DNA of 64,000 bases from Agromyces cerinus subsp. cerinus (lineage in GTDB: Bacteria > Actinomycetota > Actinomycetes > Actinomycetales > Microbacteriaceae): the NCBI RefSeq assembly GCF_900142065.1, contig NZ_FSRJ01000004.1:186001-250000 (forward strand), in the 5' to 3' direction. The notes beneath the pieces are model-generated. The model saw only the letters and a program-made list of their open reading frames with translations. It searched no databases and was not told the DNA's origin. Made by a program: the position numbers and the translations under genes. Positions 42,005 through 62,340 of the stretch are shown here, piece after piece (position 1 is the stretch's first letter; each line of letters starts with the position of its first letter).

Positions 42005-42006
42005 GG

Positions 42007-44423: not shown

Positions 44424-44444
44424 GGGGGACTCCGTTTCGGTTTG

Positions 44445-44482
44445 CAGCAGTGCAAGGGTGGGAAGATACTGCCACACTGCTG
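44445..44482 (-). promoter_or_regulatory. Inverted repeat around the potD promoter
   Basis: CAGCAGTG (44445-44452) and CACTGCTG (44475-44482) frame a 22-nt spacer that includes TATCTT on the reverse strand (a possible -10 box, 44463-44468). The arrangement fits a repressor site that covers the promoter. Confidence 0.45.
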
Positions 44483-44571: not shown

Positions 44572-47500
44572 TCAGTGGTTACGAGGTATCGGCCAGATGG
44601 CGCGGCCGACACCCTGGCCCGGTTCGAGGATCCAGCACTGCCCCGCCCCGGCGTCGAGCAGCGGAGGCAGCTCCCGGGAGCGCACGAGTGCCCGGTACTC
44701 CGCCGCGCCACCGTGCACGACGAGCGCGGCCTCCTCGCGAAGTGCGGCTGCCAGCGACCAGCTCGCCGCCCACGCCTCCGCGTCCCCCACGATCACCGGC
44801 GGTGCCTCGAGTGGGTGCGCGGCGACGGCAGCCCTGACCGCCGGTTCCCCGCCTGGGACGAGGAGGATCGCGGTGCGCCCGGCCTCCGTGATCACCGCCG
44901 CGGCCGCGCGGGGCGTCGCAGCGGCCACGGCATATGGGAGATCCTGCCGCAGCCGAAGCGTCGGAACTGCGGGAGAGGCCGGTGTCGCGACGGGCGTCGC
45001 CTCGATCACCTGCACTCGCCGCCCGCGCCACTGGCCCGCGCCGGCGCCATCGCCCGCACGCCAGAGCTCACCGCGGCCACCGGATTGCACGAGGTCGGAG
45101 CGGCTCGCGTGGCGGAGGAGGAGCCGCTCGCCGAAGGCCTCGCGCAGTCCGCTGCCGAGGACCTGCAGGCTGGCTGCCGACGCCGCGACCGCGACGCCCC
45201 GGCCACGGCCCTCCCTGACCAGGGATTCCACCATCGCGAACGCCGCGTGCCGGTACTCCTCCGGCCAGGCGCGGAAGCGGGTGTCGAGGTCGTCGAGCAC
45301 GACGAGCGAAGGGGGTGCTGCTCCCCCGCGAACCGACGACTGCGCCGCAACGAGCCCGTCCCAGACCGCGCTCGACGGCCCCGTGAGCCGCAGCACGCTC
45401 GATGCACCGCCGCCTGCGGACGCCGAGTCGGCCGCCACTCGTCCTGGCGCGGCCGAGTCGATCGCGGCCAGCTCGATCGCGGCCAGCGCCGTGGTGCGCC
45501 CGCTGCCGGGCATCCCGAGCACGAGGAGGCCGCCGTCGCGTCGCGGCGCCCACCGAGCGAGGCTGCGACGTTGCCGTTCGGGTTCGTCGACGACACCGAA
45601 GCCCGGGCCGGAGCCGTCGCCTGCCGGCTCGCCGTCGCCTGCCGGCTCGACCGGGGATCGGTTCACGGAGCCCGCGGCCGGGCGCGGTGCACCGAGGACC
45701 CGGTGCACGGCATCGGGCGCGATGCGGCTCGGCAGCGGATCGAGCCAGGTGCGGCGGGCGCGCGGAAACCCGGCCGCACGCTCGCCGGCCTCGGTGATCA
45801 CGGCAGGCGTCGCGACGGCCGAATGGAAGAGCACGGGGCATCCGTCGCCCGGATCGACGATCCCACGGCCGGGCAGATCCGGCGGGATCTCCGCCGCCGA
45901 GGGCGTTCCGACCACCGCCTCGCTGTCGGATCGCTGCAGCACGCGCAACGACACTCGGATCGGACAGTTGGCGGTGACCTGCTCCCGCACGACCCCGTTC
46001 GGCCGCTGCGAAGCGAGCACGAGGTGCACCCCGAGCGAACGACCGCGTGCGGCGATGTCGCCGATGACCGCCCCGAGCTCGGGGAAGCGCTCGATCATCG
46101 CCTGGAACTCGTCGACGACGATCACGAGTCGCGCCAGGTCGACCCCGTCATCGAGCTCGGCGATGTCGCGTGCGCCCGCCCGAGCGAGCACCGTCTCGCG
46201 ATGCGTGAGTTCGGCGCGCAGGCTGAGCACGGCCCGCTCCGCCTCGGACTCGTCGAGGTCGGTCACGATGCCGGTGACATGCGGAAGTCCCCGTACCGGC
46301 TCGAACGCCGCCCCACCCTTGAAGTCGACGAGGAGGAAGGAGACGCGAGCGGGAGGGTGGGCGACGGCGAGGGCGACGATCCATGCGAGCAGGAACTCGC
46401 TCTTGCCGCTGCCGGTCGTTCCGGCGACGAGCGCATGCGGACCGCACCGTGCGAGGTCGAGTCGGAGGGCACCGCCCGCCGCTCGTCCGACGGTCGCGGC
46501 GAGGCTCGATCGGTCGCGGCCCGCGTCTGGCGGACGCTGCAGTCCGTCGAGCTCCAACCGTCGCGGAAGGTCGTTCGAACCGGCTCCGATCCCGGCTCGC
46601 TCAGCGACGGCGGCGAGCGAGTTCGCCCAACCGGCGGCCTCCGCGATGCCGACGAGCGCGGGTGCGAGCTCCATCTCGGCGACGCCGTGCGGGCGCCGCA
46701 CGATCGCCGCATCGGGCGTCTGCATCGTCACGATCGTGCCGAGACCGGGCGGCAGCTCGGACGCGGTGCGCGCGACTGCGACGACCACGGCGGGCGGACG
46801 CTCGCCTTGCGGAGCGAGCTTCGAGGGCCGGAGCGGCCGCTGCTTGCCGTCGGCAGGTTCGACGACGACCAGACCGGCACGTGCGTGGCCTCCGCGATGC
46901 GGCAGTGCGCGCAGCCACTCCCAGTGAGTCCCTCGGGTGCCCTCCGCGACCTCGATCGCGAACTGCTGCGGATGCGCGTGATGTGCGAACTGCACGACGC
47001 TCGCGCGGGCGGCGGCCCGTGCCAGGTGGAGTTCGCCCACGAAACCGACCCCGGCTCGGGCGTCGACGCACATCGGCGCATCGTCGAGTCGCGCCGCCGC
47101 GAGCAGCACCTCCCGATCTCCGGCGTCCACCGGCGAACCGTCGATCCGCAACGCGCTCGCGGCGGCGCCACGCCCGAGCACGATCGGCGGCGGGGCCGAC
47201 TCGCGCCACGCCGGATGCTCCGACTGCTCGAGCAGTCGGCGCGACGACGGCGAGCGATGCCATGCCGCAGCCCGCTCGAGGTCGTGTCGCTGCCCGATCT
47301 CGGCCACGAGCTCGTCGAGCCGTCGCCGCCGCTCGGCGGACGCCCGTCGTCGCAGACGTCGTGCCGAACGACGTGCATCGAGCATCGAGCCGATCGCCAC
47401 GATCGGCCCGAGCACCGCGAAGACGAGCGAGAACGGCGAACCCGTGATCGCCCACAGTGCGAGCGCGCCGACGACGGGCGCGAGCGACGCGATGAGGGGG

Positions 47501-47586
47501 AACCCGGCTGCGGCGGGATCGGCCGGCGCCGGCGGCAGCGCGAGCGGGGTGTCCAGCGAGACGGGTGCGATGTCGAATCGGTCCAC
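44572..47586 (-). CDS. EccC-like FtsK/SpoIIIE ATPase
   Basis: 1,004 residues. Two N-terminal membrane helices (about 28-68), an FHA-less middle region, then two P-loop ATPase domains: Walker A GTTGSGKSE (389-397) with Walker B LVIVVDEFQ (487-495), and Walker A GMPGSGRTT (691-699) with LVVLDDLD. LLVDFKGGAAFEP after the first P-loop is the EccC/FtsK signature. Members pump proteins (type VII secretion) or DNA; the two helices and tandem ATPases fit EccC. No WXG100, EccB, EccD or EccE gene is in the window. The GTG at 47586 has no clear Shine-Dalgarno; the 122-bp gap after the FHA gene holds no ORF. Last gene of the large operon. Confidence 0.85.
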   Translation of the reverse strand: MDRFDIAPVSLDTPLALPPAPADPAAAGFPLIASLAPVVGALALWAITGSPFSLVFAVLGPIVAIGSMLDARRSARRLRRRASAERRRRLDELVAEIGQRHDLERAAAWHRSPSSRRLLEQSEHPAWRESAPPPIVLGRGAAASALRIDGSPVDAGDREVLLAAARLDDAPMCVDARAGVGFVGELHLARAAARASVVQFAHHAHPQQFAIEVAEGTRGTHWEWLRALPHRGGHARAGLVVVEPADGKQRPLRPSKLAPQGERPPAVVVAVARTASELPPGLGTIVTMQTPDAAIVRRPHGVAEMELAPALVGIAEAAGWANSLAAVAERAGIGAGSNDLPRRLELDGLQRPPDAGRDRSSLAATVGRAAGGALRLDLARCGPHALVAGTTGSGKSEFLLAWIVALAVAHPPARVSFLLVDFKGGAAFEPVRGLPHVTGIVTDLDESEAERAVLSLRAELTHRETVLARAGARDIAELDDGVDLARLVIVVDEFQAMIERFPELGAVIGDIAARGRSLGVHLVLASQRPNGVVREQVTANCPIRVSLRVLQRSDSEAVVGTPSAAEIPPDLPGRGIVDPGDGCPVLFHSAVATPAVITEAGERAAGFPRARRTWLDPLPSRIAPDAVHRVLGAPRPAAGSVNRSPVEPAGDGEPAGDGSGPGFGVVDEPERQRRSLARWAPRRDGGLLVLGMPGSGRTTALAAIELAAIDSAAPGRVAADSASAGGGASSVLRLTGPSSAVWDGLVAAQSSVRGGAAPPSLVVLDDLDTRFRAWPEEYRHAAFAMVESLVREGRGRGVAVAASAASLQVLGSGLREAFGERLLLRHASRSDLVQSGGRGELWRAGDGAGAGQWRGRRVQVIEATPVATPASPAVPTLRLRQDLPYAVAAATPRAAAAVITEAGRTAILLVPGGEPAVRAAVAAHPLEAPPVIVGDAEAWAASWSLAAALREEAALVVHGGAAEYRALVRSRELPPLLDAGAGQCWILEPGQGVGRAIWPIPRNH

Positions 47587-47708
47587 CGTGCGATCCGATC
47601 ACGCGAATCGCCGCGTCATCGATCACGACCGCCGCCGCGTCGTGGCACCGTCGACGGCGCCCCTGTGGAGGACGAGTCGGCGGGCGGGCGGGCGCCGGTG
47701 GAAACGGC

Positions 47709-48320
47709 TCAGGACACGATGAAGAACTGCTCGGCGAGCTCGACCCGGCTCCCCCGCGGCACGAGGTAGCGCCGTCCGGGCTCGCAGCGCATCGCCCCGT
47801 CGTCGGGTCGCCGCACGATCGTGCCGTTGCCCGAGAACCGATCGGCGACCCAGAGCGTGCCGTCGTGCTCTCCGAACTCGACGTGCGTCTTCGACACCGA
47901 CAGGGAGCGGTCGGCGATCTGCACGAGATGGTCGAACACTTCACCGGGCTGCGGCAGGGGCCGACGACCGATCAGTCCCGAACCGAAGACGGTGCGGGTC
48001 TCACCGGTGCTGAAGGTCAACACGAAGCGCGTCACGACGGGAGTCGTCGCCAGCGGTTCGTGCAGCTCGGGCGCCGGGGGTGCGAGGAGCTCGCCGCCCG
48101 AGTCTTCGGTCGATCCGATCGCGACCGCCGCACGGAAGCCGTCGACCGGGATCGAGATCACGCCGCTGTTGCGCCGGGCGGGCCGTTCGATCACCGTCGT
48201 GTCGCCGGGCCGCGGGTCGGGCCGGCGGCGGGATTCGGGGGTCGCGCTCGTCGAACTGCCGCATTCGCCGCAGAACATGGCCCCTTCGGGCAGCTCTGCA
48301 CCGCAGATCCGACACGTCAC
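47709..48320 (-). CDS. Zinc-ribbon FHA-domain protein
   Basis: 203 residues. An N-terminal CRICGAELPEGAMFCGECG makes a four-Cys zinc ribbon, followed by a disordered Pro/Arg linker with a TTVIE segment like kinase target sites in FHA proteins such as GarA/OdhI. The C-terminal FHA domain has GLIGRRP, SVSKTHVEF and GNGT, which keep the phosphothreonine-binding Arg, Ser and Asn. It probably binds a partner phosphorylated by the operon's kinase. The GTG at 48320 has GAGGAGG 6 nt upstream and overlaps the previous stop by 4 bp. Confidence 0.87.
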   Translation of the reverse strand: MTCRICGAELPEGAMFCGECGSSTSATPESRRRPDPRPGDTTVIERPARRNSGVISIPVDGFRAAVAIGSTEDSGGELLAPPAPELHEPLATTPVVTRFVLTFSTGETRTVFGSGLIGRRPLPQPGEVFDHLVQIADRSLSVSKTHVEFGEHDGTLWVADRFSGNGTIVRRPDDGAMRCEPGRRYLVPRGSRVELAEQFFIVS

Positions 48321-50668
48321 GAACGCCCTCCTCTCCGCGTCACAGCGTACCCGCCGAGCGAAGTGAGCGAGACCGCCGCCCGCAGCCGCTCACGAAGCGA
48401 CCGCGGCGCACCGAGGCGCTCCTGCAGTTCATCGACCGAATCCCAGACCAGGCGGTCATCGCCCTCCGCCGGTCCGTCGGGAGCGAACACGGCGCGATCG
48501 ACGACCGACGCGAGCACGAGCGGCGCGAGGCCGCCGACCGTCGCCGCCTGCTCGGCACGCGTGGACATCGGCCTGATCGGATACCCGTAGTCTGCCGCCG
48601 AGTCCGCGAACTCCTGCCATCCGCCCTCGATACGCTCGACCGCGCTCGGCGCCTTCCGCCGAAGCCGCCGCCGCCGCATCTTCGCGACGATGATCGCGAG
48701 GAACGGGCTCGCGATGACCGCGAGCACGCCCAGCACGATGCCCGCGACCCCCAGCACCGCCAGCAGCGTCTGCACCCAGGCGTCCGCACGGTCGTCGGGC
48801 TCGTCGGGAGGCGTCTCGGGGTCGTTCGCCAGGTCGTCGACCGGCGTGCGCTCAGCCGGCGGAGGCAGCGCCGACTGCGGCCTCGACACGATGGTCGGCT
48901 GATCGGGCTCGCGCTCGGGGATCGGGCTCGGCATCGGGTTCGGGTCGACCGCGATCCAGGCGCCGTCGGCGCGCTGCACCTCGATCCATGCCTGCTTGTC
49001 GCCGCTCACGAATCGGGTGACGCCGTCGGGTGCGGGGTCGCTCTCGGCATCCGGTTCATCGGATTCCTGCGTGCCGTCCGCGACCGCGGCGGCCGCTTCG
49101 GCTCCGCCGGGAAGATAGCCGACCACGACTCGCGCCGGGAAGCCGATGTGACGCGCCATGAGCGCTGCGGCGACCGCGTACTGCTCGCCGTCCCCGACCA
49201 TCGGCCGTTCGACCGCGAGATCGGCGAGTCGATCGAGCGAGTGCCCCGACCTGCTCGGCACCTCGCCGTAGCCGTGACTCACGTACCCGTTCGCGTGGAA
49301 TCCCTCGATGACGGCCTGCAGCCGCACTCCGGGTTCGTCGGACGACGAAGCCCACTCGTCGAGCAGCTGCGCGAGCTCCTCGGGCATCTCGGGAGCCGCC
49401 GGGAGCACACTGGTGCCGGGGCTCAGCTCGGCGAGCGCTTCGGGGGCGACGGGCACCACCGAGATCGCGGCAAACCGATCGCCGGACTGCAGCGGGCGCT
49501 GCACCGCACCCGTGCTCGTCACCTCGTTGTAGAAGAACGACTCGGTGAGCAGCTCCGCGCGCGGCCCGCCGAACGTCATGCGTTCGAGGCGACCCACTCC
49601 AGGCACCCACACCTCGGCGTAGCCCTCGACCTCCACCTCGATCGCGGCCGGCTCGTTGTCTCCGCTCACACCCGACTGGTCGAGCCGGTAGGGCACCCGC
49701 GTGAAGCGTCCAGATGCCGCAGCGGCGTCGGCGCCGCCGACCGTGTACACGATGCCGTCGTACGAATCGAGGGCTGCCATGCGCAGGCCCGCGCCCTCTG
49801 GGAGCCCTCGCACGTCGAGCATCACATCGTCCGCGACATCCTCGCCGAATGCGGCGCGGAAGCCGGCGAGCGGGCTGTCGTGCTGCCTCGGCTCGAACGG
49901 CGGCTGCAACTCGGCGCGAACGACATTGCGGGGCGGCACGGGCAGGGCCACGGATGCCGCGGTCGCACCGACGACCGCGATGGCCACGAGTGCGGAAGCA
50001 CCCAGCACGCGACGTGCGTCGGTGAGCGCCGCCTCGACCCGCCGCCCGCTCGTGATGGCACGCCGGTCGGCGATGGCGACCCGGACGAGCCAGGCGATGG
50101 CGGTGATCAGGTACGCGATTCCGGCCTCCACGGCGAGCGCCGAGTGCACGACGCCGAGTGCGATGCCCGCGACGAGGAGCACGGCGGGCGGCAGCGCGGC
50201 GGCCGCCGGTCGCCGGCTGCGCAGCGCGATCGAGATCGCGGCGGTGGCGGCGACGAGCCCGAGCAGGAACGGCGGCACGAGCAGCGCCTGGTAGGACCCG
50301 ACGGGGACCGAGATCGTGACGAGCTGCTTCCACGAGAGCGCCGCTCCCGCGAGGAGCTCCACGATGCCGGACGGAGTCGGCAGGATGCCGCCGATCGCGG
50401 CGCCGGGCACCGCGGCCGGCACGCCGAGCACGAGGTACGCCGCGAACACGGAGAGCACGATGATCCACGACGGCAGTCGGAACCGCGCCCCGATGACGCC
50501 GATCGCGACTCCGGCCACGATCGCGACCGCCGCGGCGACGAGGAAGGCGGGACTCTCGTAGACGGGCCACCACGGCAGCATCGCCGCGGCGAGCATGGCG
50601 ACGACGAGCACCACCGTGACGAGAGTGGGCCCGAACCTGCGGGCGCCGGCGGGGACGCGGGCGGTCAT
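48317..50668 (-). CDS. Membrane protein with a degenerate transglutaminase-like domain
   Basis: 783 residues: about six helices in the first 200 residues, a seventh near 225-245, a large outer region with the transglutaminase-like core (about 445-580), one more helix (about 634-661) and a cytoplasmic tail. The core is recognisable by IGFPARVVVGYLPGG and AWIEVQ...WIAVDPNP. In the standard triad the Cys position is Gly494 (VGDGEQYA) and the His position is Gln559 (KQAWIEV); only Asp575 remains. A transglutaminase or protease reaction is therefore unlikely, and a binding role is more plausible. ATG at 50668 overlaps the DUF58 stop (ATGA). Confidence 0.85.
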   Translation of the reverse strand: MTARVPAGARRFGPTLVTVVLVVAMLAAAMLPWWPVYESPAFLVAAAVAIVAGVAIGVIGARFRLPSWIIVLSVFAAYLVLGVPAAVPGAAIGGILPTPSGIVELLAGAALSWKQLVTISVPVGSYQALLVPPFLLGLVAATAAISIALRSRRPAAAALPPAVLLVAGIALGVVHSALAVEAGIAYLITAIAWLVRVAIADRRAITSGRRVEAALTDARRVLGASALVAIAVVGATAASVALPVPPRNVVRAELQPPFEPRQHDSPLAGFRAAFGEDVADDVMLDVRGLPEGAGLRMAALDSYDGIVYTVGGADAAAASGRFTRVPYRLDQSGVSGDNEPAAIEVEVEGYAEVWVPGVGRLERMTFGGPRAELLTESFFYNEVTSTGAVQRPLQSGDRFAAISVVPVAPEALAELSPGTSVLPAAPEMPEELAQLLDEWASSSDEPGVRLQAVIEGFHANGYVSHGYGEVPSRSGHSLDRLADLAVERPMVGDGEQYAVAAALMARHIGFPARVVVGYLPGGAEAAAAVADGTQESDEPDAESDPAPDGVTRFVSGDKQAWIEVQRADGAWIAVDPNPMPSPIPEREPDQPTIVSRPQSALPPPAERTPVDDLANDPETPPDEPDDRADAWVQTLLAVLGVAGIVLGVLAVIASPFLAIIVAKMRRRRLRRKAPSAVERIEGGWQEFADSAADYGYPIRPMSTRAEQAATVGGLAPLVLASVVDRAVFAPDGPAEGDDRLVWDSVDELQERLGAPRSLRERLRAAVSLTSLGGYAVTRRGGRS

Positions 50669-51987
50669 GAGATCGAGGCCGATCTCGCGAGCATCGCGCG
50701 CAGGTCTTCGAGATAGCCGACGCCGAAGACGGTCAGGCCCGCGATCGTGCGAGCGTTCGCCTCGCCCTCGGGCGCGCACTGCACCGCGATCGTCTCGACC
50801 CCCGGTGGCAGCCGGGTCGCGGCGGCGCGCAACGGCGAGACACCGCGCGCGGTTCCGGTGACGATGAACGCGAGGGAGACACCGGCGAGCGTCTCGCTCG
50901 CGGCACGGGCCACATCGGGGAGCATCACCGCATCGGTCGTCGTCTCGACGAGGCACAGCGCGTCGAGGAGCCGATCGCGGGAGACGGTCGGCAGTTCGCG
51001 CATGGCGCTGCGACGGACACCGGCGGCCGACTGCCGCCCGGAGACCACGAACGACACCGTGCGGGCGTCGCGGATCGCGCGTGCGCCAACGGATGCCGCG
51101 GCGCTGACGGCGAGTTCGAACTCGGCCGAATCGACGTAGGCCCCCGGGTCGAGATCGAGCAGCACCATGAGGCGACTGCGCCGCGTCTCCTCGAACTGCC
51201 GCACCATGAAGGTGCCGGTCTTGGCGGAGCTGCGCCAGTGGATGAATCGGCGATCATCGCCGGGCACGTACTCGCGCAGCGCGTGGAAGGCGATGTCGCT
51301 CGCCGTCAGGTCGCGCGTCGGCGTGCCCTCGAGATCTCGGATGAATCCGGTGCTGAGCGCGTTGATCGGCACCGTGCGCGGATGCACGTGCAGTTCGGCC
51401 GTCTCCGACCACAGGAACTCCCGACGCATGAGGCCGATCGGGTCGGCACGCACGGTGCGCGCCGGGCCGACCGGCACGACCCCACGCCGCTCCGTGGGGA
51501 TCGTGAACTGCTCATCGAAGACGCCGCCTCGCGGAAGTCCCGGAAGGACGCGTTCGACGATGCGGCGACCGACCGGAAGCTCGAGCTGCACGCCGCCGAA
51601 CCGCCGGCGACCGGGATTGGCAGCGATCAGCCGCGCCTCGGCGGGCTCGCCGACCACCACACGCGGCGATGGCAGCACGAGCTGGATGGTGCCGGCTCCA
51701 CGACCGATGAGCCAGACGGATGCCGCGGCCACGAGCACGACGAGGCCCCATCCGAGTGCGATGAGTTCGAGCCATCCCCAGGTGTAGCCGCCGGCGAGCG
51801 AGATCACCGCGACGACGATGACCGACCAGCCGAGCGGGGTCACGACGCCCTGCACCATTCGGCCGGCGCGCGCGATGGCCGCACCGGCACGGCGCCCGGC
51901 CACGACGGCGCGCCCGATCACGACCGCGAGCAGGCCCTCTCGTCTGGCGTCCTCGGGGATCGTCGTTCGCGTCTGGGTGAGTGTCAC
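50665..51987 (-). CDS. DUF58 domain protein
   Basis: 440 residues with two membrane helices near the N-terminus (about 52-95) and the DUF58 signature LREYVPGDDRRFIHWRSSAK (about 240-260), followed by a VWA-like domain (SRLMVLLDLDPG). DUF58 proteins occur beside MoxR ATPases and transglutaminase-like proteins; MoxR is thought to act as a chaperone on such VWA-like partners. The GTG start overlaps the MoxR stop by 4 bp. Confidence 0.87.
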   Translation of the reverse strand: MTLTQTRTTIPEDARREGLLAVVIGRAVVAGRRAGAAIARAGRMVQGVVTPLGWSVIVVAVISLAGGYTWGWLELIALGWGLVVLVAAASVWLIGRGAGTIQLVLPSPRVVVGEPAEARLIAANPGRRRFGGVQLELPVGRRIVERVLPGLPRGGVFDEQFTIPTERRGVVPVGPARTVRADPIGLMRREFLWSETAELHVHPRTVPINALSTGFIRDLEGTPTRDLTASDIAFHALREYVPGDDRRFIHWRSSAKTGTFMVRQFEETRRSRLMVLLDLDPGAYVDSAEFELAVSAAASVGARAIRDARTVSFVVSGRQSAAGVRRSAMRELPTVSRDRLLDALCLVETTTDAVMLPDVARAASETLAGVSLAFIVTGTARGVSPLRAAATRLPPGVETIAVQCAPEGEANARTIAGLTVFGVGYLEDLRAMLARSASIS

Positions 51988-52955: not shown

Positions 52956-52967
52956 CTCGGCTCCTTC

Positions 52968-55900
52968 TCAGCGGTTCTGGTAGCGGACGACGACGCCCGC
53001 GATCTCAACATCCAACCAGACGCGGTCGCCCGGCTTGGCTTCGGGGATCTGGCAGCTCGTCGGGGTCTGGGCGGTCCTGCCGTTGCGGTCGCCGTCGACG
53101 CCGCAGGTGAACGTCACCGGAAGCCCGGAGTTCTCGGGCGCCGACGTCCACGACCAGGTCCTCGTGCCTTCGTCCCATGCCCGGCTCGGCAGTGCGAACG
53201 TCAGCGACGGGCGGGCATCGGAGGGGAGCACGTCCGACCACGGACCGCAACTGCCCCAGATCGAGCAGCTCCGCACCTGGAACCGCACCGTTTCACCGAA
53301 CGGCCTCGCGAAGAGGTCCTGTGCCCATCCCGACCCGTCGAAGCTCTGCTGCGTGCCCGGGATCTGGGCGCCGTTCCCGTCGACGGCGACGATGTCGTAT
53401 CGCCAGGCGCTGGGCGCGACGCCCGAGATGTAGCGGTCGTAGGTGTCGGCGGTACGGAACTCCATGTGACTGTCGACCCTCCGGATGGCGTCGGGCGCGG
53501 GCCGCACCACGGTGCCGGCCACCTCCGTGTTCGTGCACGCGGCCCGGTTGTAGCCCCAGACGAGGAACGAGTATTTCGTGGACTCCGCCGACGTGCCCGA
53601 GAACTGCACGCTGGTCGTGCCGGGGCCGACGTGCACCACCTCGGCGACGGTGCCGCCGCCCGACGGCGCGACGACGTTTCCGGGGGCGGGGCTGGTCACC
53701 GAGCACGCCTGCGCCCCGGCGGGCACCCCGGAGGCCCCGTCGACGAGGCGTTGCACGAAGTATCCGCCGATCGCATCTCCGTTGCCGGCGAACGGGTCCC
53801 AGGCGACCGTGACGGTGCCGGCCGCTGCGTCGCCGCTGACGGAGATCCCGCCGGCGATGGGCGGCCCGAACGGCGTGCCGCTGGCCCCGGCCTGGGTCCA
53901 GACCGCGAGCGCCGGGAAGGCCTGGTTCCTGGCACTGATCGTGATCGGCACCTGGCTTCCGTTCTCGAGCCGCTGCGAGTCCGTGGAACAGACCGTCGCC
54001 GTGCACACCGCCGCCGCGGAGACCTCGGTCGAGACTCCGGCGACCGTGACCACGTACGTTCCGATGGCGCTTCCGGATCCCTCGGGCACCCGGTCCCACT
54101 CGAGGCGGAGGTACCCGTCGCGCGGGAGCGCGCGCACCCCGGTGGGCGGCGGGGGGACGACGTCCGACCAGATCGGGCCCGGCGCGTCGACCGGGTCGGA
54201 CAGGCCGATCCCGTTCCTCGCCCGGATCCGCACGTGCACGGCCTCGGCCTGCCCGTTGCCGGGCGTCGTGACCGTGCAGGTCGTCGCGGCGCACCCCGAC
54301 GAGCTCGTCACCTCGCCCGTGCCCGCGTCGACCAACTGGATCTCGTAGCCGGTGATCGGCGAGTTGTTGAAGGCGCCCGCCCCGAACACGACGTCGAGGC
54401 TGCGATCTCCGAAGCCCGTGACCCGAGCGCCCGTGACGGGGTCGGGTCGGTCCTGCACCGAGATCGTGACGAGGCCCCAGGCGTTGCGCGCCGCGTCGCC
54501 GGTCGCATCGGCCACCTCGTACTGCACCGTCGAGTTCACCGGCGCCGCTCCCGGCGCGACCGTCACCTCGAGCCGCGACCGGTCTTCGCTCGGCTCGATC
54601 GACACGCCGCTCGGGAGGCTGTCCGCGTCGAGGCCGCGAACATCGACGACCCGGAGCGGCACGTCGGGGAACGGGTTGGTCGGCCCGTCGTTGGCGAGCA
54701 CGTCGATCGTCGTCGTCCGTCCGCGTTGCGCGATCACGGTGTCGGGAGCGGGCCTCGCGATCGGTTTCGTCGACGGCACCACGCGCAGCTCGATGCGCCC
54801 GGGCTTGCCGTCGCCCGAGTCGTCCGCGACGCCGATCGCGACCGTCCGCGGCGCCTTGGACGTCGATGCCTCCGCCTCGATCGTGAGGTCGGAACCGTCG
54901 AGGGAGAAGCGGAACCCCTCCGTCGGCGGCGGCAGCAGTCGGTAGACGAGTTCGCCTTGAGCGGCCGGATACGATTTCGTGAGCTTCAGGAGGTCGATCT
55001 CCTTCGACTCCCCGGGCTCGAAGTCGATGACTCCGCCCGTGAACACCGGGGGCTGGTTCTCGGTCGGCAGCACGTCGATCGGAATCACGATGGTGCCGGT
55101 CCGCGCCGACGGGTCGGCGGCCGACTCCCCGTCGGTGACGGTGAACGAGAGCGACGCCGGACCGAAGTAGCCCTCTTCGCTGCGATATCGCAGGGTGTCC
55201 TGATCGACCACGAGGTCGGCGCCGTCGCTGTGCGAGGCGCGCACCGTCGCGGCATCCGTGATCTTCACCGGGCGGCCGGATGCGGCGATGACGAAGTCGT
55301 CGAGATCGAGCGTCACCTCGTCGCCGCTCACGACGTCGACCTCGGGTGCGTCGGCTCGAAGCTGCGGCAGCGCATCGTCTCGGCCGGGCACCCAGATGAA
55401 CGCGTACGAGACGATCGAGGGGTCTTCGGGGTGGGTCACCGAGAACGGGATGACGCGCCGCCGGTCTTCGACCTGCACCCGGATGCTCCCGTCGCGGCGC
55501 ACTTCGGCCCCTCGGCCGTAGCCGTCGACGAGTCCGACGACGAGATCGTCGACATCGGCGTCGGCGAGGAAGACGTTGCGCAGCACCGGGACGTCCACGA
55601 CGTCCTCATCGAGGATGTCGCTCAAGGTCAGGACGGTGTCGGATGCCTCGGGGCGTGCCAGCGGGGCATCCTCGCGCGCCATGATCTTGAGGAAGGTCGA
55701 CGCGGTGCCGAGCTGCTCGTTCTCGATCTCGTAGGAGAACCCGTAGTCGTCTTCGCCCGGAGGGAGCTCGACCTCGATCCGATCGTCGACGATCTCGGCG
55801 ACAGCATCGCCCTCGATCACGGTCACGTCCTTCAGGGTCAGCGCACCGCCGTCGGGGTCGGAGTCGTTCTCGAGGACGCGAACGGCGACGGTGCGACCCG

Positions 55901-58862
55901 GCCGCACCTCCACGATGTCGTTGACGGCGGTCGGCAGGCGGGCTCCGTCGAGGCGCGGTGCGATGCCGACCCTGACGGTGCCCACGGCGCGTTCGCCGAG
56001 CGCGTCGACGACCTCGTACTCGAACGTGTCGGTGCCGGCGGAGTACTCCCCCGCCTCGTACTCGAGCCAGTCCGCCCCGTGGGCGGTGACGTTGCCGAGC
56101 TCGGGGGTGCCGCCCTGGCCGAGCAGTTGCACGCTGTCGCCCTCGGGGTCGGATCCGCCGAGCGGCACGGGGATCCGTACCGTCTCTCCCGAGAGCACTC
56201 TGGCGGTGACGGTCGCCGGGACGGGCGGGGTGTTGGTATCGGGGTCGGCCTCGCGCACCGACATCTGCACGGTCGCCGTGGCCCATTGACCGTCGGGTCC
56301 GGCTACCCGGTAGACGGCCTCGTACTCCCCCGGCTCCTCGGGAGCGAAGTAGCGGAGCCGGTCTCCGGCGGCGAAGAGCAGTCCCGCCTTCGGTGCACGC
56401 TCGAGCGTCGGCTCGAGCGTGATCGGCAACGCGTCGGGGTGCTCGTCGTTGGCGAGCACCGCGATGTCGACCACGTCGCCGGTGCGCGCCGAGATCTTGT
56501 CGGGCACGGCGACGGGCGATTGCGGGGACTCCAGTTGCGGCACCTCGACGACGGTCACCTCGCCGACGGCCTCGGCGAGGCCGTTGCTGACCCGGTAGCC
56601 GAAGACGCTCGATCCGGTCGCCAGCGGGCCGGTGAGGGTGACACGAAGGATGCGGTGGTCGACGACCTCGACCTGCACGCCCTCGCCCGCCTCCGCCGTC
56701 GGCTCGCCGAGCCCGGTCAGGATCAGCACGCCGCCGGTCGGGTCGATGTCCGTGGCGAGCACGTCGACGTCGACGGGCTGTCCTCCCCTGATGAACACCG
56801 TGTGCGGAACCGTGATGGGCGTGGTGTCGCGCTCGGGCGGAGCGGAGACGTCGACCCGGACACGACCCGTCGTCGTCCAGATGCCGTCGGTCACGGTGTA
56901 CTCGAGCGAGTGCGTCCGCACATCGGAACTCGAGAATCGGAAGGTCCCGCCGTCGAAGTCGGGTGTCAGCTGCGCGTCGGGCTTGGCGGGGACGGCGGTC
57001 AACTGCACCTGGCCCGAGCCGCCGCGCACATGCCGCAGCGGGTCGATGCGCACCTCCTGCCCCGCCGTCGCGAGCACCACGAACGGGTCGGCGACGAGCT
57101 GCACGCTGCCGGGTGCGCGAACGCCGATGCCGAGCGCGCCGACGGCGGTGTCACGCCCGTCGGACACCTCGAGCGTGACGATCCGGTCCGCTCCGGCACC
57201 GCCCTTCTCGTCGAACACGACGACACCGTCGGCCGTCGACGACAGCGCGTCCGGTGCGGCGGCCGTGGCTCGCCTGAGGAAGAACGGGTCGCCGTCGGGG
57301 TCGACCCAGTCGCCGAGCACTGCCGTGTTGACGCGGCCCCCCGCCTGCACGAGGGTCTTGGACGGCCGTCGCTGTTCGGGCGGCGAGTTCTCGTCGGCGT
57401 CGCGCACGGTCACGCTCACCGCGGCATGCGCGGTGCCGCCGAAGCCGTCGTCGACCGTGTAGCCGAAGGTGATGACACCGGATGCCTCGTCGTCGAGCAC
57501 GAGCTGCAACTGCTGGTTGTCGGCGATCCGGTCGACAGTGACTCCTGCCGGCAATTCGCCGTCGACGGCATCGACGACCATGGCGTCGCCGTTGGCGTCG
57601 TAGTCGTTCAGCAGCACCGGCAGTTGGGTCGTACGCCCCGGGCGCGCACCGAACTCGTCGGCGGCCGCGACGGGGGGCACCTGGCTCTTCTCGATCGTCG
57701 GCGGCGTCTCGGGGTCGTTCTGCTCGATCGTCTCCTCGTCGTGCTCGATGTCGAGGAGGTCTTTCCAGTTGTCGATGAGGCCGAACCCGACGCCGGCGGC
57801 CCAGGTCTTGCCGCTGCGCCGTTCATTGAGCACGAGCGTGGCGCCGTTGGCGAGGTAGGTGTAGTCGCCGATGGCGGTCGCCGAGGGCAGTTCGACGGGG
57901 TCCGGGTCGCCACCAGCCGCGCAGGACCGCCACGCGGTTCCCTCGGCCCACGCCGCGTAGAGGCATCCGTCGTGCAGGAACGGCGCGGCCGGCAGCCCGG
58001 AGCGATCGTCGACCCGGGTGCGCGGCTCGTCGCCGTCGAACCCGACGGTGACGAGACCTCGGCGCGTGGCGATCGCGACGTCGTCGCCGTCGCTCGACGG
58101 ACGCTGGAGCACCGGGGCGTCGTTGGCTGCGATGAACGAGGAGAGATCGACCGGACCCCGCTCGAGGTGGAGCGTCAGGGTGCTCGCGTCGAACACCGCC
58201 CAGCGGTCGGCGACCGAGGTGATCTGCACCTCGGCGTCCTTGCCGGCCGGCTTCGCCTGCCAGCGGGTGCGCACGGTCTCGGCATCCGCCACATCGACCC
58301 GCGCGACGTCGCCGGTCGACGGCGTGTAGGCGAAGAGCGTTCCATCGGGATCGACCGACGTCACCGTTCCCTTGCCGAGTGCGAGCATCGGCTCGGAATC
58401 GGCGTCGAACTGCGCGAACCGGTCGACGGGCGTCGTCCAGATGTCACCGTCCGAGGTCACGACGACCCGCGGACCGGCGAGGTCGAGCGTCGCATCGTCG
58501 GGAGGGACCGCGACGGTCTCGGTGAGGCTCGAGGTCGTCGCGTCGATGACCCGCACGGTCGCCCGCGCGCGATCGAGCGCCAGCACGGTGGCCCCCTGCT
58601 GCACGATCTCCGTGCCGGTCGAACCCGTCTCGACGACCGAGTTCAGTTCGAGCAGCGCGGTGTTCGCACGGCCGATCGCCTGGTGCTCGTTGCTGCTGAC
58701 CCATACGGCGGCGTCGCCGAGGTCGACTCGTTGGGCGGCGTACCCGCCGGATGCGATCGCGACGCCTGCGACGAGCGCCACCACGGCGGTGGTCGCCGCG
58801 GCGGTGATGGCCGCGGATCGCGGCTTGGGCAGACGGGTCAGGTCGGGAAGTCGCGGCATCAT
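52968..58862 (-). CDS. Giant Ig-like/fibronectin type III envelope protein
   Basis: 1,964 residues, the largest gene here. A short positive N-terminus (PRLPDLTRLPKPR) and one helix (about 19-39) make it a signal-anchored membrane protein with its bulk outside. Residues about 45-370 look like a beta-propeller. About 395-1475 is a series of Ig/cadherin-like modules with recurring VLxNDxDPDGD-type motifs. About 1475-1960 are fibronectin type III modules with paired cysteines. Tryptophan-serine clusters (WGSCGPWSD) occur near the C-terminus. No catalytic motif is seen. It overlaps the kinase by 4 bp (ATGA). The Fn3 partner of the Bifidobacterium PFNA cluster has the same position and a similar architecture. 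Probably an extracellular scaffold or adhesin. Confidence 0.87.
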   Translation of the reverse strand: MMPRLPDLTRLPKPRSAAITAAATTAVVALVAGVAIASGGYAAQRVDLGDAAVWVSSNEHQAIGRANTALLELNSVVETGSTGTEIVQQGATVLALDRARATVRVIDATTSSLTETVAVPPDDATLDLAGPRVVVTSDGDIWTTPVDRFAQFDADSEPMLALGKGTVTSVDPDGTLFAYTPSTGDVARVDVADAETVRTRWQAKPAGKDAEVQITSVADRWAVFDASTLTLHLERGPVDLSSFIAANDAPVLQRPSSDGDDVAIATRRGLVTVGFDGDEPRTRVDDRSGLPAAPFLHDGCLYAAWAEGTAWRSCAAGGDPDPVELPSATAIGDYTYLANGATLVLNERRSGKTWAAGVGFGLIDNWKDLLDIEHDEETIEQNDPETPPTIEKSQVPPVAAADEFGARPGRTTQLPVLLNDYDANGDAMVVDAVDGELPAGVTVDRIADNQQLQLVLDDEASGVITFGYTVDDGFGGTAHAAVSVTVRDADENSPPEQRRPSKTLVQAGGRVNTAVLGDWVDPDGDPFFLRRATAAAPDALSSTADGVVVFDEKGGAGADRIVTLEVSDGRDTAVGALGIGVRAPGSVQLVADPFVVLATAGQEVRIDPLRHVRGGSGQVQLTAVPAKPDAQLTPDFDGGTFRFSSSDVRTHSLEYTVTDGIWTTTGRVRVDVSAPPERDTTPITVPHTVFIRGGQPVDVDVLATDIDPTGGVLILTGLGEPTAEAGEGVQVEVVDHRILRVTLTGPLATGSSVFGYRVSNGLAEAVGEVTVVEVPQLESPQSPVAVPDKISARTGDVVDIAVLANDEHPDALPITLEPTLERAPKAGLLFAAGDRLRYFAPEEPGEYEAVYRVAGPDGQWATATVQMSVREADPDTNTPPVPATVTARVLSGETVRIPVPLGGSDPEGDSVQLLGQGGTPELGNVTAHGADWLEYEAGEYSAGTDTFEYEVVDALGERAVGTVRVGIAPRLDGARLPTAVNDIVEVRPGRTVAVRVLENDSDPDGGALTLKDVTVIEGDAVAEIVDDRIEVELPPGEDDYGFSYEIENEQLGTASTFLKIMAREDAPLARPEASDTVLTLSDILDEDVVDVPVLRNVFLADADVDDLVVGLVDGYGRGAEVRRDGSIRVQVEDRRRVIPFSVTHPEDPSIVSYAFIWVPGRDDALPQLRADAPEVDVVSGDEVTLDLDDFVIAASGRPVKITDAATVRASHSDGADLVVDQDTLRYRSEEGYFGPASLSFTVTDGESAADPSARTGTIVIPIDVLPTENQPPVFTGGVIDFEPGESKEIDLLKLTKSYPAAQGELVYRLLPPPTEGFRFSLDGSDLTIEAEASTSKAPRTVAIGVADDSGDGKPGRIELRVVPSTKPIARPAPDTVIAQRGRTTTIDVLANDGPTNPFPDVPLRVVDVRGLDADSLPSGVSIEPSEDRSRLEVTVAPGAAPVNSTVQYEVADATGDAARNAWGLVTISVQDRPDPVTGARVTGFGDRSLDVVFGAGAFNNSPITGYEIQLVDAGTGEVTSSSGCAATTCTVTTPGNGQAEAVHVRIRARNGIGLSDPVDAPGPIWSDVVPPPPTGVRALPRDGYLRLEWDRVPEGSGSAIGTYVVTVAGVSTEVSAAAVCTATVCSTDSQRLENGSQVPITISARNQAFPALAVWTQAGASGTPFGPPIAGGISVSGDAAAGTVTVAWDPFAGNGDAIGGYFVQRLVDGASGVPAGAQACSVTSPAPGNVVAPSGGGTVAEVVHVGPGTTSVQFSGTSAESTKYSFLVWGYNRAACTNTEVAGTVVRPAPDAIRRVDSHMEFRTADTYDRYISGVAPSAWRYDIVAVDGNGAQIPGTQQSFDGSGWAQDLFARPFGETVRFQVRSCSIWGSCGPWSDVLPSDARPSLTFALPSRAWDEGTRTWSWTSAPENSGLPVTFTCGVDGDRNGRTAQTPTSCQIPEAKPGDRVWLDVEIAGVVVRYQNR

Positions 58863-60277
58863 GCACCCTCGAGATCGACCGACACCTCGACGCAGCGCTC
58901 AGCGCTCGAGGCACCCGACTTCCCATCGCGCACGACCTTGACGCTCGCGCACACGCGGTCGCCGTCTTCGGCCGGCACCGTCACCCGTGCCTCTCGCTGC
59001 AGCGGCAGGGCCTCGCCGTCGACGGTCACGACGTACGCATCGGAGCTCTGGAGCCCCGGGTCGTTCCAGGAGAAGGTCACGGTCGCATCCGCGTCCACGC
59101 CCTGCACGTCGGTCACGACGGGAATCGACCTGGTGCCCTGGATCACGAAGTACGCACCGGCGCCCACCAGGGCGATCAGGAGCACCGAGACGAGGGAGAT
59201 GCCCCAGGCGAGTCGGGCAGAGGTCGGCGCGGTCGTTCGGATGCGGCTCGTGCCGGGGTCGTGAGGGCGGGAGTCGGCCTGCGACCGGGTGGAGCCGAAT
59301 GCACCGCTGCGCGCGCGCCGCCGACGTGGTGCGCCGTCGCCGATGCCGTGGGCGCCGCTGATGCGGGTCTGCTCGTCGACGTCGACGGCGGTCGCGAGCG
59401 CCCAGTCGTCCATCGCGACCTCGAGCGGCGTCTGGAAGAGCCCGAGCTCCTCCTCGACCGACTGCAGGTCGCGGATGAACTCGAGTGCACTCGACTGCCG
59501 GCTCGACGGCCTGCGCGACATCGAACGCGCGAGCACCTGTTCGAGGCTCTTCGGCACGTCGAGGCGCCCCGTCGGGGTGTACTTCGCCTTGTCGATCCTG
59601 CCCATGAGCGCGCCGGATCCGTTGTCGCCGCCCGGCGTCTCGAACGGACTGCGACCGGCGAGCAGCGAGTACACGGTGGCGCCGAGCGACCAGACCTCGC
59701 TCGCGACGCTGCCCGAGACCTCGTCGTGCAGCACCTCGGGCGCCGACCACGGGATCGACAGGCCGACCGCGTCGGAGGACTCGGCCTCGCCGAGCGTCGC
59801 CGCGATGCCGAAGTCGGAGAGCACGGGGTGGCCGTACGCGGTGGTGAGGATGTTCGAGGGCTTGATGTCCCGGTGCAGCACGCCCTGCCGGTGCGCGGTC
59901 TCGACCGCGCTCGCGATGCGCACGCCGACGGCGAGCACCTCGGCCAGCGGCAGCTGCACGGCGCGGTAGCGCTGGCCGAGCGAGGCCGAGCAGTACTCCA
60001 TCACCAGGTACGGCCGGCCGTCGGCCGCGACGCTGGCCTGGTAGACCGTGAGGATCGACGGGTGCGAGGAGAGCTGGGCCATGAGGTTCGCCTCGGCCTG
60101 GAACATCTGCCGCAGGTCGTCGTTGACGACCTCGGCGAGCAGCACCTTCACCGCGACGAGGCGGCGCGGCATGTTCTGCTCGTAGAGGAAGACATCGGCG
60201 AATCCACCCGATCCGAGTACGCGGATGAACGCGAAACCCGGCAGGTTCGGAGGCGTGGACGGCAGTCGTCGGGACAC
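58859..60277 (-). CDS. Transmembrane Ser/Thr protein kinase with Fn3-like ectodomain
   Basis: 472 residues. Kinase domain 15-270 with glycine loop GSGGFADV (22-29), Lys44, HRD (135-137), DFG (155-157) and APE (179-181). A basic, disordered juxtamembrane segment leads to one helix (357-379) and a ~90-residue outer domain that reads like a single Fn3 module (TVTFSWNDPG, AYVVTVDG) with two cysteines (443, 462). There are no PASTA repeats, so it is not a PknB-type muropeptide sensor. The GTG at 60277 has GGAGG just upstream. It likely senses something through the ectodomain and phosphorylates the operon's FHA and other partners. Confidence 0.9.
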   Translation of the reverse strand: MSRRLPSTPPNLPGFAFIRVLGSGGFADVFLYEQNMPRRLVAVKVLLAEVVNDDLRQMFQAEANLMAQLSSHPSILTVYQASVAADGRPYLVMEYCSASLGQRYRAVQLPLAEVLAVGVRIASAVETAHRQGVLHRDIKPSNILTTAYGHPVLSDFGIAATLGEAESSDAVGLSIPWSAPEVLHDEVSGSVASEVWSLGATVYSLLAGRSPFETPGGDNGSGALMGRIDKAKYTPTGRLDVPKSLEQVLARSMSRRPSSRQSSALEFIRDLQSVEEELGLFQTPLEVAMDDWALATAVDVDEQTRISGAHGIGDGAPRRRRARSGAFGSTRSQADSRPHDPGTSRIRTTAPTSARLAWGISLVSVLLIALVGAGAYFVIQGTRSIPVVTDVQGVDADATVTFSWNDPGLQSSDAYVVTVDGEALPLQREARVTVPAEDGDRVCASVKVVRDGKSGASSAERCVEVSVDLEGA

Positions 60278-60342
60278 GATCCTCCTGCCTGCTCTGGGCC
60301 GGTGCCGCGATGCCCGGTGGCCGGCGGCGCCCGGTGCCCATC

Positions 60343-60348
60343 ATTGTA
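60343..60348 (-). promoter_or_regulatory. Internal promoter (-10) before the kinase gene
   Basis: TACAAT on the reverse strand in the 136-bp gap between phosphatase and kinase, an almost perfect -10 box in an otherwise GC-rich gap. It would give a leader of about 60 nt and allow the kinase-Fn3 part to be transcribed apart from the first two genes. Confidence 0.5.
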
Positions 60349-60413
60349 TCCGCGGGCGACGGATGCCTCGTGGTGCTCTGCACACAGCGAGAGGAGCCGA
60401 CCTCGGACCCGCG

Positions 60414-61241
60414 TCAGCCGTGCGCCGGCTCGACCTCGCCGGACGACCGCGCGCCTTCGGGACGCACGACCTTCAGGACGTCGACCACGATCGCCGTGAC
60501 GTTGTCGCGTCCTCCGTTGCCGAGCGCCGCCTCGAGCAGTTGGTGCGCGGCCTTCTCGGCCTTCGCATTGGCGACGAGGAAGTGACGGATTCCATACGTC
60601 GTGAGCTCCTTCGTGAGCCCGTCGGAGCAGATGAGCAGCCGCATGCCGGGCTCGACGGCGATCGCACGATAGTCGGGGATCGGCGCCTCGTGGAAGCCGA
60701 CGGCACGCGTGATCACGTTCGAGTGCGGGTGGGTGTCGGCCTCTTCGCGAGTGATCTGCCCGGCGTCGACGAGCTCCTGCACGATCGAGTGATCGACCGT
60801 CAGCTGCTCGAGCACGCCGCCCACCAGCCGGTAGACGCGCGAGTCGCCGATGTTGAACACGATCCAGGCCGGCTCGTCGGCGATCGCCCCGATCGCGGCA
60901 CCCGTGACCGTCGTGCCGCTGCCCTCGTCGGTCACGCCGGCGCCGCGGCCCATGTCCTGCACCGCGAGGCGGAGCGCATGGTCGATCTCGGGAGTGCCGA
61001 CGAGCGTCTTGCCGCCGTGCTCGGCGAGCCGGGTGACGACCGCGGCGCTCGCGAAATCGCCCGCGGCGTGGCCGCCCATGCCGTCTGCCACGGCGAAGAT
61101 CGGCGCCTGTGCGACGAAGCTGTCTTCGTTGACCTCGCGGCGCAGGCCGGTGTCGGTGACCGCCGCCCAGGCGAGGGTGACCTCGGTGCCGTCGGGCAGC
61201 GTGATCCGATGGCGGGCGTTGCCATTGCCGATCTGGGTCAC
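60414..61241 (-). CDS. PP2C-family Ser/Thr protein phosphatase
   Basis: 275 residues. Metal-binding and catalytic motifs are all present: RREVNEDSF, ADGMGGHAAGD, GSGTTVTGA, NIGDSRVYR, LICSDGLT and GGRDNVTAIVVD. It has no membrane segment. It would reverse phosphorylation by the kinase of this operon. The start is GTG at 61241, just before VTQIGNGN; the ORF extension to 61367 overlaps the FHA gene and is rejected. Confidence 0.92.
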   Translation of the reverse strand: MTQIGNGNARHRITLPDGTEVTLAWAAVTDTGLRREVNEDSFVAQAPIFAVADGMGGHAAGDFASAAVVTRLAEHGGKTLVGTPEIDHALRLAVQDMGRGAGVTDEGSGTTVTGAAIGAIADEPAWIVFNIGDSRVYRLVGGVLEQLTVDHSIVQELVDAGQITREEADTHPHSNVITRAVGFHEAPIPDYRAIAVEPGMRLLICSDGLTKELTTYGIRHFLVANAKAEKAAHQLLEAALGNGGRDNVTAIVVDVLKVVRPEGARSSGEVEPAHG

Positions 61242-61266
61242 CTGTGAAGCCTGCTGTCTGTTCGGG

Positions 61267-62340
61267 TCATGCGCCGGGGGAACCCTGGGCGAGGAGGATC
61301 TCGATGATCGTATCGTCTCCGAGATCGAGGCGGGTGCCGGGCAGCACCACGACCGACTCCCCGGCACGGAGCCGGCGGGTGCCGGACATCGTGCGGAGCA
61401 CGGTGCCGTTCGTCGAGTGCAGGTCGGTCGCGACGAGTCGTGTGCCGATGAGCCGCAGCTCGAGGTGGGTGCCCGAGACGATCGCCGCCGGCGATTCGAC
61501 CGTGAGGAGTTCGGGCTGCATGTCGCTGCCCGCGATGCGCGGAGGCAACGGCTTCCGACCGATGAGCACGGGCGCGGTGATCGTCACGGGCTGCCCTGCT
61601 CCGATGCGGAAGCGCGGGCCGTTCTGTGCCGGTTCTCCGGCGACGTCCGCTGGAGTCGCCGGCGAGCCGCTCGGAGACTCCTCGGTCGCCGCTCCCGGCC
61701 CCGTCGGCGAGGAGGCGGTGGCCCCCGAGACCCGCGCCGCCTGGCGCGGGGTGATGACCGTGTCGGCGACGGGCGCCCCGAGACCCGCCTCGTGCTGGCG
61801 CGGCGCGAGCAACGTGTCGGCATCGAGCCAGGGCGTGGGAACAGGGACATCCGCCGGTCTTCCGGCCGCCGTCCACTCGACCGAGGAGGCGCGCAGGCTC
61901 GCTCGCCGAGGCACCACGGGCTCACCCGCGGTCGGCTCGCGGCCGAGCGGCGTCGCGGCGTCGGTGATGCGCAGCGCCACCACGTCGTCGAAGTCGGCGA
62001 GGTGCCACGGACGGATGCCGCGTGCGTCGAACCTGCGGCTGCCGCCCGGTGAGGCGAGGTCCACGACCGCGTCGCCGCGCACGACGGCGGTCACGCTCGT
62101 CGTCGCGCCCTCCGCCCACCAGACGAGGCCGAACGACGCCACGGGGTCGACACGGCCCGACGGCAGGAGCCCCACGAGCGCTTCGAGCGCGAGCCGGTCG
62201 TCGCTCGCCGCGTCGGAGAGCGCGTCCAGCACCCCCTGGGGAGCGGGGGCCGCGACCGCGGCGATGAACCGATCGCCCACGATGACATCCCACGCGGGCG
62301 CACCGGCCGACGCCGAACTCGAGACAGCGCCTGAGACCAT
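61267..62340 (-). CDS. FHA-domain protein, first gene of the large operon
   Basis: 357 residues. The first ~120 residues form an unrecognised globular domain (FGLVWWAEGATTSV). A Pro/Ala-rich linker includes TLLAP and TVITP segments, possible phosphorylation sites. The C-terminal FHA domain (about 265-350) has VLIGRKP, VSGTHLEL and DLHSTNGT; Arg, Ser and Asn of the phosphothreonine pocket are kept. The ATG at 62340 has AAGAAT 6 nt upstream, so the operon probably begins here as a leaderless mRNA. Confidence 0.87.
   Translation of the reverse strand: MVSGAVSSSASAGAPAWDVIVGDRFIAAVAAPAPQGVLDALSDAASDDRLALEALVGLLPSGRVDPVASFGLVWWAEGATTSVTAVVRGDAVVDLASPGGSRRFDARGIRPWHLADFDDVVALRITDAATPLGREPTAGEPVVPRRASLRASSVEWTAAGRPADVPVPTPWLDADTLLAPRQHEAGLGAPVADTVITPRQAARVSGATASSPTGPGAATEESPSGSPATPADVAGEPAQNGPRFRIGAGQPVTITAPVLIGRKPLPPRIAGSDMQPELLTVESPAAIVSGTHLELRLIGTRLVATDLHSTNGTVLRTMSGTRRLRAGESVVVLPGTRLDLGDDTIIEILLAQGSPGA

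Follow-up and report, generated by a model that had tools for sequence, protein, structure and literature searches.

The operon and its products

The window, a 64,000-nucleotide stretch of the genome of Agromyces cerinus subsp. cerinus, carries on its minus strand, from position 62340 down to 44572, a nine-gene operon built around a PFNA cluster, a gene set that has so far been read as a bifidobacterial host-signal operon. All nine genes are co-directional and follow one another, 5' to 3', in the order FHA1, PP2C, kinase, giant Fn3/Big_9 protein, MoxR, DUF58, transglutaminase, FHA2 and EccC/EssC-like ATPase (Table 1); the chosen reading frames have a GC content at third codon positions of 0.84-0.92. 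The nine-gene operon is real, and its gene set and gene order are directly established. Four of the eight junctions are 4-bp stop/start overlaps (kinase/giant, MoxR/DUF58, DUF58/transglutaminase and transglutaminase/FHA2). The giant/MoxR junction is a 12-bp gap, FHA1/PP2C is a 17-bp overlap or a 25-bp gap depending on the choice of start, and gaps of 136 bp and 122 bp lie at PP2C/kinase and FHA2/ATPase. A simple scan located no terminator-like site within the operon on the operon strand and no sigma-70-like promoter; the sole terminator-like match between 44300 and 63100 is on the opposite strand, past the ATPase gene. The original prediction, made by a model from the letters alone, had the nine genes, the strand and the positions right; its statement that most of the genes are joined by 4-bp overlaps holds for the four junctions just listed, which are not most of the eight. 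Its recognition of the core as the PFNA set is borne out by Pfam matches and coordinates: kinase, Fn3 giant, MoxR, DUF58 and transglutaminase stand in the same order and direction.

Table 1. Genes of the operon, 5' to 3', with positions in the window and the basis of each assignment (aa, amino acids; TM, transmembrane segment)
Feature	Position	Strand	Basis
FHA1, FHA protein with an N-terminal domain without family assignment, 357 aa	61267..62340	-	PF00498 23.2 bits
PP2C-type Ser/Thr phosphatase	60414..61283 (start 61283 or 61241)	-	PF13672 (PP2C_2) 41.7 bits; NF033484 196.9 bits, below cut-off 230
Ser/Thr kinase, 472 aa, one TM (360-378), short ectodomain	58859..60277	-	PF00069 139.1 bits; TM by hydropathy
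Giant Fn3/Big_9 protein, 1964 aa: TM 18-36, Big_9 domains, C-terminal fn3	52968..58862	-	Pfam, hydropathy
MoxR-type AAA ATPase	51984..52955	-	PF07726 (AAA_3) 211.6 bits
DUF58 protein, two TM	50665..51987	-	PF01882 48.5 bits; TM by hydropathy
Membrane pseudo-transglutaminase, TgpA_N and Transglut_core	48317..50668 (start 50668)	-	44.9 and 42.3 bits, above cut-offs
FHA2, zinc ribbon and FHA, 203 aa	47709..48320	-	PF13240 26.2 bits; PF00498 17.3 bits, below cut-off 20.7
EccC/EssC-like ATPase, 1004 aa, two N-terminal TM	44572..47586	-	FtsK_SpoIIIE (Pfam), EssC/EccCa models, hydropathy

The active-site states of these proteins can be read directly from alignments. For the kinase, the phosphatase and the two FHA proteins the counts refer to loci of the window type, defined below. 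Kinase residues Lys44, Asp137, Lys139 and Asn142 are kept in 47 of 48 sequences and Asp155 in all 48, and the four Asp residues of PP2C in 43-44 of 44. Arg262, Ser289, His292 and Asn311 of FHA1 are conserved in 42/42; in FHA2, Arg119 is found in 34/34, Ser143 and His146 in 33/34 and Asn165 in 32/34, the remainder being gaps. These Arg, Ser, His and Asn residues, which we take to be those of the phosphothreonine-binding site, are present in both proteins, which are accordingly predicted to be phosphothreonine readers. The operon's own set of kinase, phosphatase and FHA proteins, as originally proposed, is thus intact in its key residues. The ATPase retains a first P-loop that is intact and a second that is degenerate (Arg697 occupies the position of the second-domain Lys): Walker A Lys395 and Walker B Asp492/Glu493 are present in 31/31 aligned sequences, the second-domain Lys in 16/31. 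It scores 235.7 bits against the EssC model (cut-off 778.4) and 223.4 bits against EccCa (cut-off 509.15), short of equivalog level in both cases, and its best matches of solved structure are 4nh0 and EccC5. It is therefore EccC/EssC-like by profile matches, as the designation of a secretion-type ATPase implied, though below the curated cut-offs.

The transglutaminase is without its nucleophile. In the window protein the alignment places Gly at the catalytic Cys and Gln at the His, and Cys is found in none of the 106 readable distinct homologues from window-type and other PFNA loci (two further rows, of 108 distinct ones, lack the motif and were taken as wrong-frame open reading frames). The motif at this site is GD/GN-x-EQY/F-A/S, with x being Asp in 51, Ala in 23, Gly in 18, Glu in 6, Gln in 5 and Ser in 3. 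Two loci with the Bifidobacterium gene order (L088 and L089, family f41) also have a transglutaminase without Cys. As a control, 19 of 34 transglutaminase matches, these 19 from nine genomes, were treated as non-PFNA; 15 of these 19 have GxC by pattern and four do not. Thirty of the 106 distinct proteins (e.g., L072 and L125) combine replacement of Cys by Asp with retention of the His and Asp of the triad, for which a metal site is conceivable. A phmmer search of the window transglutaminase against PDB returned zero matches. The protein keeps the TgpA_N and Transglut_core domains and lacks the Cys of an active enzyme; the original description of it as dead is right. The accessible text of PMC8430577 terms the PFNA transglutaminase a presumed cysteine protease, a label to which the sequences read here lend no support, and an open-access search found no literature describing Cys loss in this family.

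The giant protein matches the fibronectin type III domain PF00041 at 29.3 bits (cut-off 25), and thus possesses the fn3 element by which a PFNA cluster is recognized. A single weak profile match, of residues 41-192 to the surface-layer protein 1l0q (E 0.0012), hints at a propeller-like region at residues ~40-390. With one N-terminal TM, Ig-like repeats and no LPxTG or other sorting motif found in its sequence, it would suit a role as a protein anchored in the membrane and extending into the wall. Its first 500 residues find all their eight best named matches in Agromyces, at 55-65% identity.

Directly downstream of the operon (40197-44475, minus strand) is what its translations suggest to be a polyamine-type ABC transporter operon; similar neighbours occur in own-genus loci and in one other genome, G263.

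Distribution, synteny and linkage to EccC-like ATPases

Conservation of the cluster is likewise a matter of direct observation. With the first 500 residues of the giant as query (E 1e-3), 110 of the 198 genomes surveyed within the order and 39 of 72 genera gave a match, although some weak matches may be to Big_9 alone; these genomes, and the named genera in which the giant is matched, contradict the published restriction of PFNA to Bifidobacterium. In a class-wide sample the giant was matched in 18 of 148 genomes, its whole N-terminal region only in the order and in one further family (f29). Across 80 named loci, the giant-MoxR-DUF58-transglutaminase run is unbroken in 60 (open reading frames ordered by start) or 64 (by end), the failures including cut contigs. 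Of the 80 loci, 26 have the window order from FHA1 to FHA2 and 32 that of the first seven genes, each of them one of 37 window-type loci. These 37 were selected from the 80 as being of the window type and on longer contigs and, having been found by similarity of the giant, are biased to the window type; some are metagenome-assembled genomes (MAGs) labelled only Actinomycetota or Microbacteriaceae. In 31 of the 37 relatives, mostly Microbacteriaceae, the giant is followed on the same strand, at a distance of 10.4-13.9 kb, by a window-type ATPase. The identity of the contigs was confirmed by length for 20 of the 31 and by position for the others. When 20 linked loci were fetched, the transglutaminase was found upstream of the ATPase in 19 (L264 begins after that gene) and FHA2 in 19 (the exception being L259, from Clavibacter). 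The scattering of these genes in related genomes, which had been named as the observation that would speak against a joint system, is not seen in most of the genomes examined, and the proposition that the nine genes constitute one joint system is well supported. The description of the system as self-contained is weakened by the lack of WXG100 genes near the ATPase, detailed below, and by genomes in which PP2C and the ATPase occur without the PFNA core: in G263, PP2C, FHA2 and the ATPase form a group with one short gene, and four Microbacterium-type genomes have PP2C and the ATPase. The unlinked state does not strictly follow genus name, since in L200, a MAG labelled Microbacterium, the ATPase is linked.

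Three further loci are recorded here in their own right. A Microbacterium-like PFNA giant and MoxR on a contig labelled Stenotrophomonas maltophilia (L213) are probably contamination. The ATPase match of a Cryobacterium breve strain (G355:C1:1162850-1166053) contains four in-frame stops and is a pseudogene or an assembly error. The genome of the window itself has a second PFNA-type cluster (L094/L095, C8 ~449-470 kb) with two giant genes in tandem, in the order PP2C-FHA-kinase-FN3-FN3-MoxR-DUF58-TGM-FHA (TGM, transglutaminase); the 40 kb retrieved there hold no EccC match.

The linkage of PFNA to EccC-like ATPases of two main lineages is also directly established. Matches to TIGR03924 from 101 giant-carrying genomes were sorted into FtsK and EccC classes A (canonical EccC), B (EssC-like, ~1500 aa) and C (shorter or weaker), the classes being bit-score bands set after the scores were seen. 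The first linkage batch comprised 130 giant loci in the 101 genomes, weak and partial matches left out; a later class B survey added some. Genes on the strand of the giant and no more than 40 kb from it number 30 of 76 in class B, 6 of 78 in class C, 1 of 35 in class A and 0 of 48 for FtsK (a control confined to the first batch, 48 of 49 genomes); on the opposite strand the corresponding numbers are 2, 0, 3 and 1. The 78 class C genes come from 76 of the 101 genomes, and the six that are linked are those of six own-genus genomes. A class B-specific query found true class B ATPases in 55 of the 198 genomes of the order. The giant is present in 49 of these 55 and in 61 of the 143 others (Fisher p 8e-10, without phylogenetic correction), and in 30 of the 49 genomes with both, distributed over 10 families, the class B ATPase is 10.7-19.7 kb downstream of the giant on the same strand. 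All three class B ATPases scanned have an FHA domain fused at the N-terminus. In 21 of 30 linked genomes the class B ATPase has a WXG100 match (E 1e-3) at most 7 kb further downstream, these 30 being those of the first linkage batch (including G106, G045 and G092) and not exactly the 30 of the class B query.

Sixteen class B loci without linkage were fetched (10 of 19 unlinked and 6/6 giant-negative). The MoxR-DUF58-transglutaminase genes are still held by L298, L303 and L305; kinase, PP2C or FHA genes without these three are found in L297, L301, L302, L304 and L307, two of which are short contigs; L299, L300, L306 and L308-L312 have neither set. Class C ATPases in other families (L148-L150, L153-L163) lie near conserved genes which we take to be WhiB-like and sensor-kinase-like.

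In a quick tree of 56 ATPases, some of them on long branches, 23 class B proteins form one clade (support 100) and three class B rows fall outside it, one of these PFNA-linked (G106). The window ATPase belongs to a clade of 11 (100 SH-aLRT) made up of its own genus, four Microbacterium-type genomes and G263, and this clade is sister to class B (support 97). That the window ATPase might be a truncated or diverged class B protein was rejected on its place in this separate clade. PFNA is accordingly connected with no fewer than two EccC lineages, a third being involved in G106. In a second tree, with 20 more relatives, the unlinked ATPases of the Microbacterium-type genomes and of G263 nest within the linked clade; two changes are forced by starred branches, and the deepest branch has a support of 94. 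Because of this nesting, losses of the core are the better reading of the unlinked state. The suggestion that G263 represents the state before insertion of the core was weakened when more genera placed unlinked ATPases within the linked clade.

What the operon may do

The most likely reading, tentative as it is, sees in this operon the form that a widespread PFNA-type gene cluster takes in Microbacteriaceae, and a phospho-gated machine for envelope export or assembly. The membrane kinase would sense an outside cue and phosphorylate MoxR and other partners; PP2C would reset the switch, and FHA1 and FHA2 would bind the phosphothreonines. FHA2, encoded just ahead of the ATPase, may be the split-off FHA part of an EssC-type motor, and the EccC-like ATPase, with its one working P-loop domain, would power, at the membrane, either translocation or assembly. 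MoxR, the membrane-bound DUF58 protein and the dead transglutaminase could together be chaperone and scaffold for assembly of the giant, whose N-terminal TM would be its anchor and which would reach into or across the wall. Export and the signal, like the phosphorylation events and the scaffold roles, are inferred here. The original interpretation is supported in part: its phospho-switch and its large envelope fibre are conjectural. Because a similar gene set is elsewhere often tied to a type VII-like motor, the evidence hints at an export or surface-assembly machine over host sensing.

A number of observations weigh against this interpretation. Of the 49 genomes that combine a giant with a class B ATPase, 19 gave no sign of linkage, 9 of the 30 linked class B loci have no WXG100 match, and six of the 37 window-type relatives have the giant with no ATPase found nearby (Mycetocola, Diaminobutyricibacter, Leifsonia ALI-44-B, Klugiella, Herbiconiux moechotypicola and the Microbacteriaceae bacterium L205, whose contig stops 11.5 kb downstream of the giant). 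The 35 window-type genomes checked all have WXG100 matches, but none of these is on the contig of the ATPase at 40 kb or less from it; several of the contigs stop close to this gene. (The 35 are from 37 linked window-type genomes, 6 own-genus plus 31, with G277 and G355 left out; 63 WXG100 rows were checked and the other 19 later, with the outcome unchanged.) No other core component of type VII secretion (EccB/D/E/MycP or EssA/EssB/EsaA) is among the nine operon proteins, to which this comparison was confined, no genome-wide search having been made. The ATPase gene is preceded by the 122-bp gap, and the nesting of unlinked ATPases in the linked clade implies that the modules are separable. Finally, since the two PFNA-linked clades are sisters, a single old linkage followed by many losses is possible, and the two linkages may not be independent.

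The phospho-gated machine could be part of something more general. PFNA at large might be the accessory half of an actinobacterial export machine of an undescribed class, in which an EssC/EccC motor is gated by kinase, phosphatase and FHA proteins, MoxR, DUF58 and the pseudo-transglutaminase assemble a trans-wall giant, and the Bifidobacterium operon is a reduced relic; this is possible, if doubtful.

Rather doubtful, too, is the proposal that two modules merely share one operon, the PFNA core maintaining a wall-associated giant and PP2C-FHA2-ATPase doing another, possibly housekeeping, job, so that the ATPase would not be a secretion motor for the core. The coreless PP2C-FHA2-ATPase of G263 and PP2C-ATPase of the four Microbacterium-type genomes fit such a division, as do the missing WXG100 genes near window-type ATPases and the class C ATPases outside the own genus, which are not linked to the giant; 14 of 26 mapped class C loci adjoin a WhiB-like gene. 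Set against it are the joint operon, which looks ancestral in the family (one key branch has a support of 94) and persists in 31 of the 37 relatives tested, and the linkage of a related EccC lineage to PFNA in 10 families.

Adhesion combined with host-signal sensing, the function proposed for Bifidobacterium, in which host ligands attach to the giant and are reported on by the kinase, is unlikely here. It draws on work with B. longum, whose FN3 protein binds TNF-alpha and whose PFNA kinase phosphorylates the PFNA MoxR (PMC8430577, in the portion available). It accounts for neither the EccC-type motors nor the WXG100 neighbours. Moreover, the cluster is found in genera with a mainly free-living lifestyle, such as Agromyces, Cryobacterium, Salinibacterium and Arthrobacter. 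A conflict or defence system akin to the MoxR-vWA-propeller ternary systems, which according to the accessible part of PMC7159879 fuse the propeller to vWA, is very improbable and was rejected after a PADLOC search matched only two of the proteins, the kinase in its kinase region and the ATPase in its P-loop region: the MoxR protein does score 44 bits with PF20030 (cut-off 27) and the giant may have a propeller-like region, but MoxR scores 212 bits with AAA_3, no propeller-vWA fusion is seen in the window, where DUF58 and giant are separate genes, and none of the nine proteins has a vWA family match at E 0.01.

Comparison with known systems

Like the EssC/EccC proteins of type VII secretion, the window ATPase has two N-terminal TM, an FtsK/SpoIIIE domain and intact first-domain Walker motifs. 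It differs from them in its length of 1004 aa, its degenerate second P-loop and its scores below the curated cut-offs; moreover, the FHA domain is separately encoded, and no WXG100 gene or other type VII part is nearby. The operon may work like a type VII system, but by these features it falls outside type VII membership. No literature linking PFNA to type VII secretion was found in an open-access search. Elsewhere in the same genome are EccC-like ATPases of 1511 and 1517 aa that do come with WXG100 genes (L098, C4 ~88-93 kb, and L096, C5 ~756-762 kb, respectively); neither has a linked PFNA cluster. In L108 (2102-3265, minus strand) a class B ATPase and an FHA gene are followed by a 387-aa protein that to the eye begins like a WXG100 protein; a weak PF06013 match nearby falls in a different stretch. 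In phospho-gated type VI secretion (PpkA/PppA/Fha), a kinase, a phosphatase and an FHA reader stand beside an export machine; no type VI component is seen in the window operon, and the likeness is one of analogy only.

The MoxR-DUF58-transglutaminase triads of the MRP subfamily, as described in the accessible part of PMC6803598, consist of the same three adjacent genes; in the window the transglutaminase lacks the nucleophile, and kinase and giant are added. The mycobacterial moxR operon also resembles PFNA, according to the available text of a 2025 review (PMC12067865). In Bifidobacterium, PFNA is described as pkb2-fn3-aaa-atp-duf58-tgm with optional prpC, hypothetical gene and fha, five to eight genes in all (PMC8430577 and PMC6803598, in their accessible parts); the same portions report co-transcription in B. 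longum GT15 (PMC8430577) and no orthologues outside bifidobacteria (PMC6803598). The window shares with it the five core genes, co-directional and identically ordered, together with PP2C and FHA. The latter two had been presented as additions to the known cluster, which is incorrect, since some Bifidobacterium PFNA clusters hold both (PMC8430577, accessible text). The differences are the position of PP2C and FHA1 upstream of the kinase, the addition of a second FHA protein and of the EccC-like ATPase, and the host, a Microbacteriaceae genus. Three things are new here: the reach of the cluster across the order, the frequency with which it is linked to EccC-type motors, and a transglutaminase that has lost its nucleophile in all homologues read. 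Wide presence among actinobacteria, frequent association with type VII-like ATPases and with WXG100 genes, and the Cys-less transglutaminase together give PFNA a testable role in envelope export or assembly.

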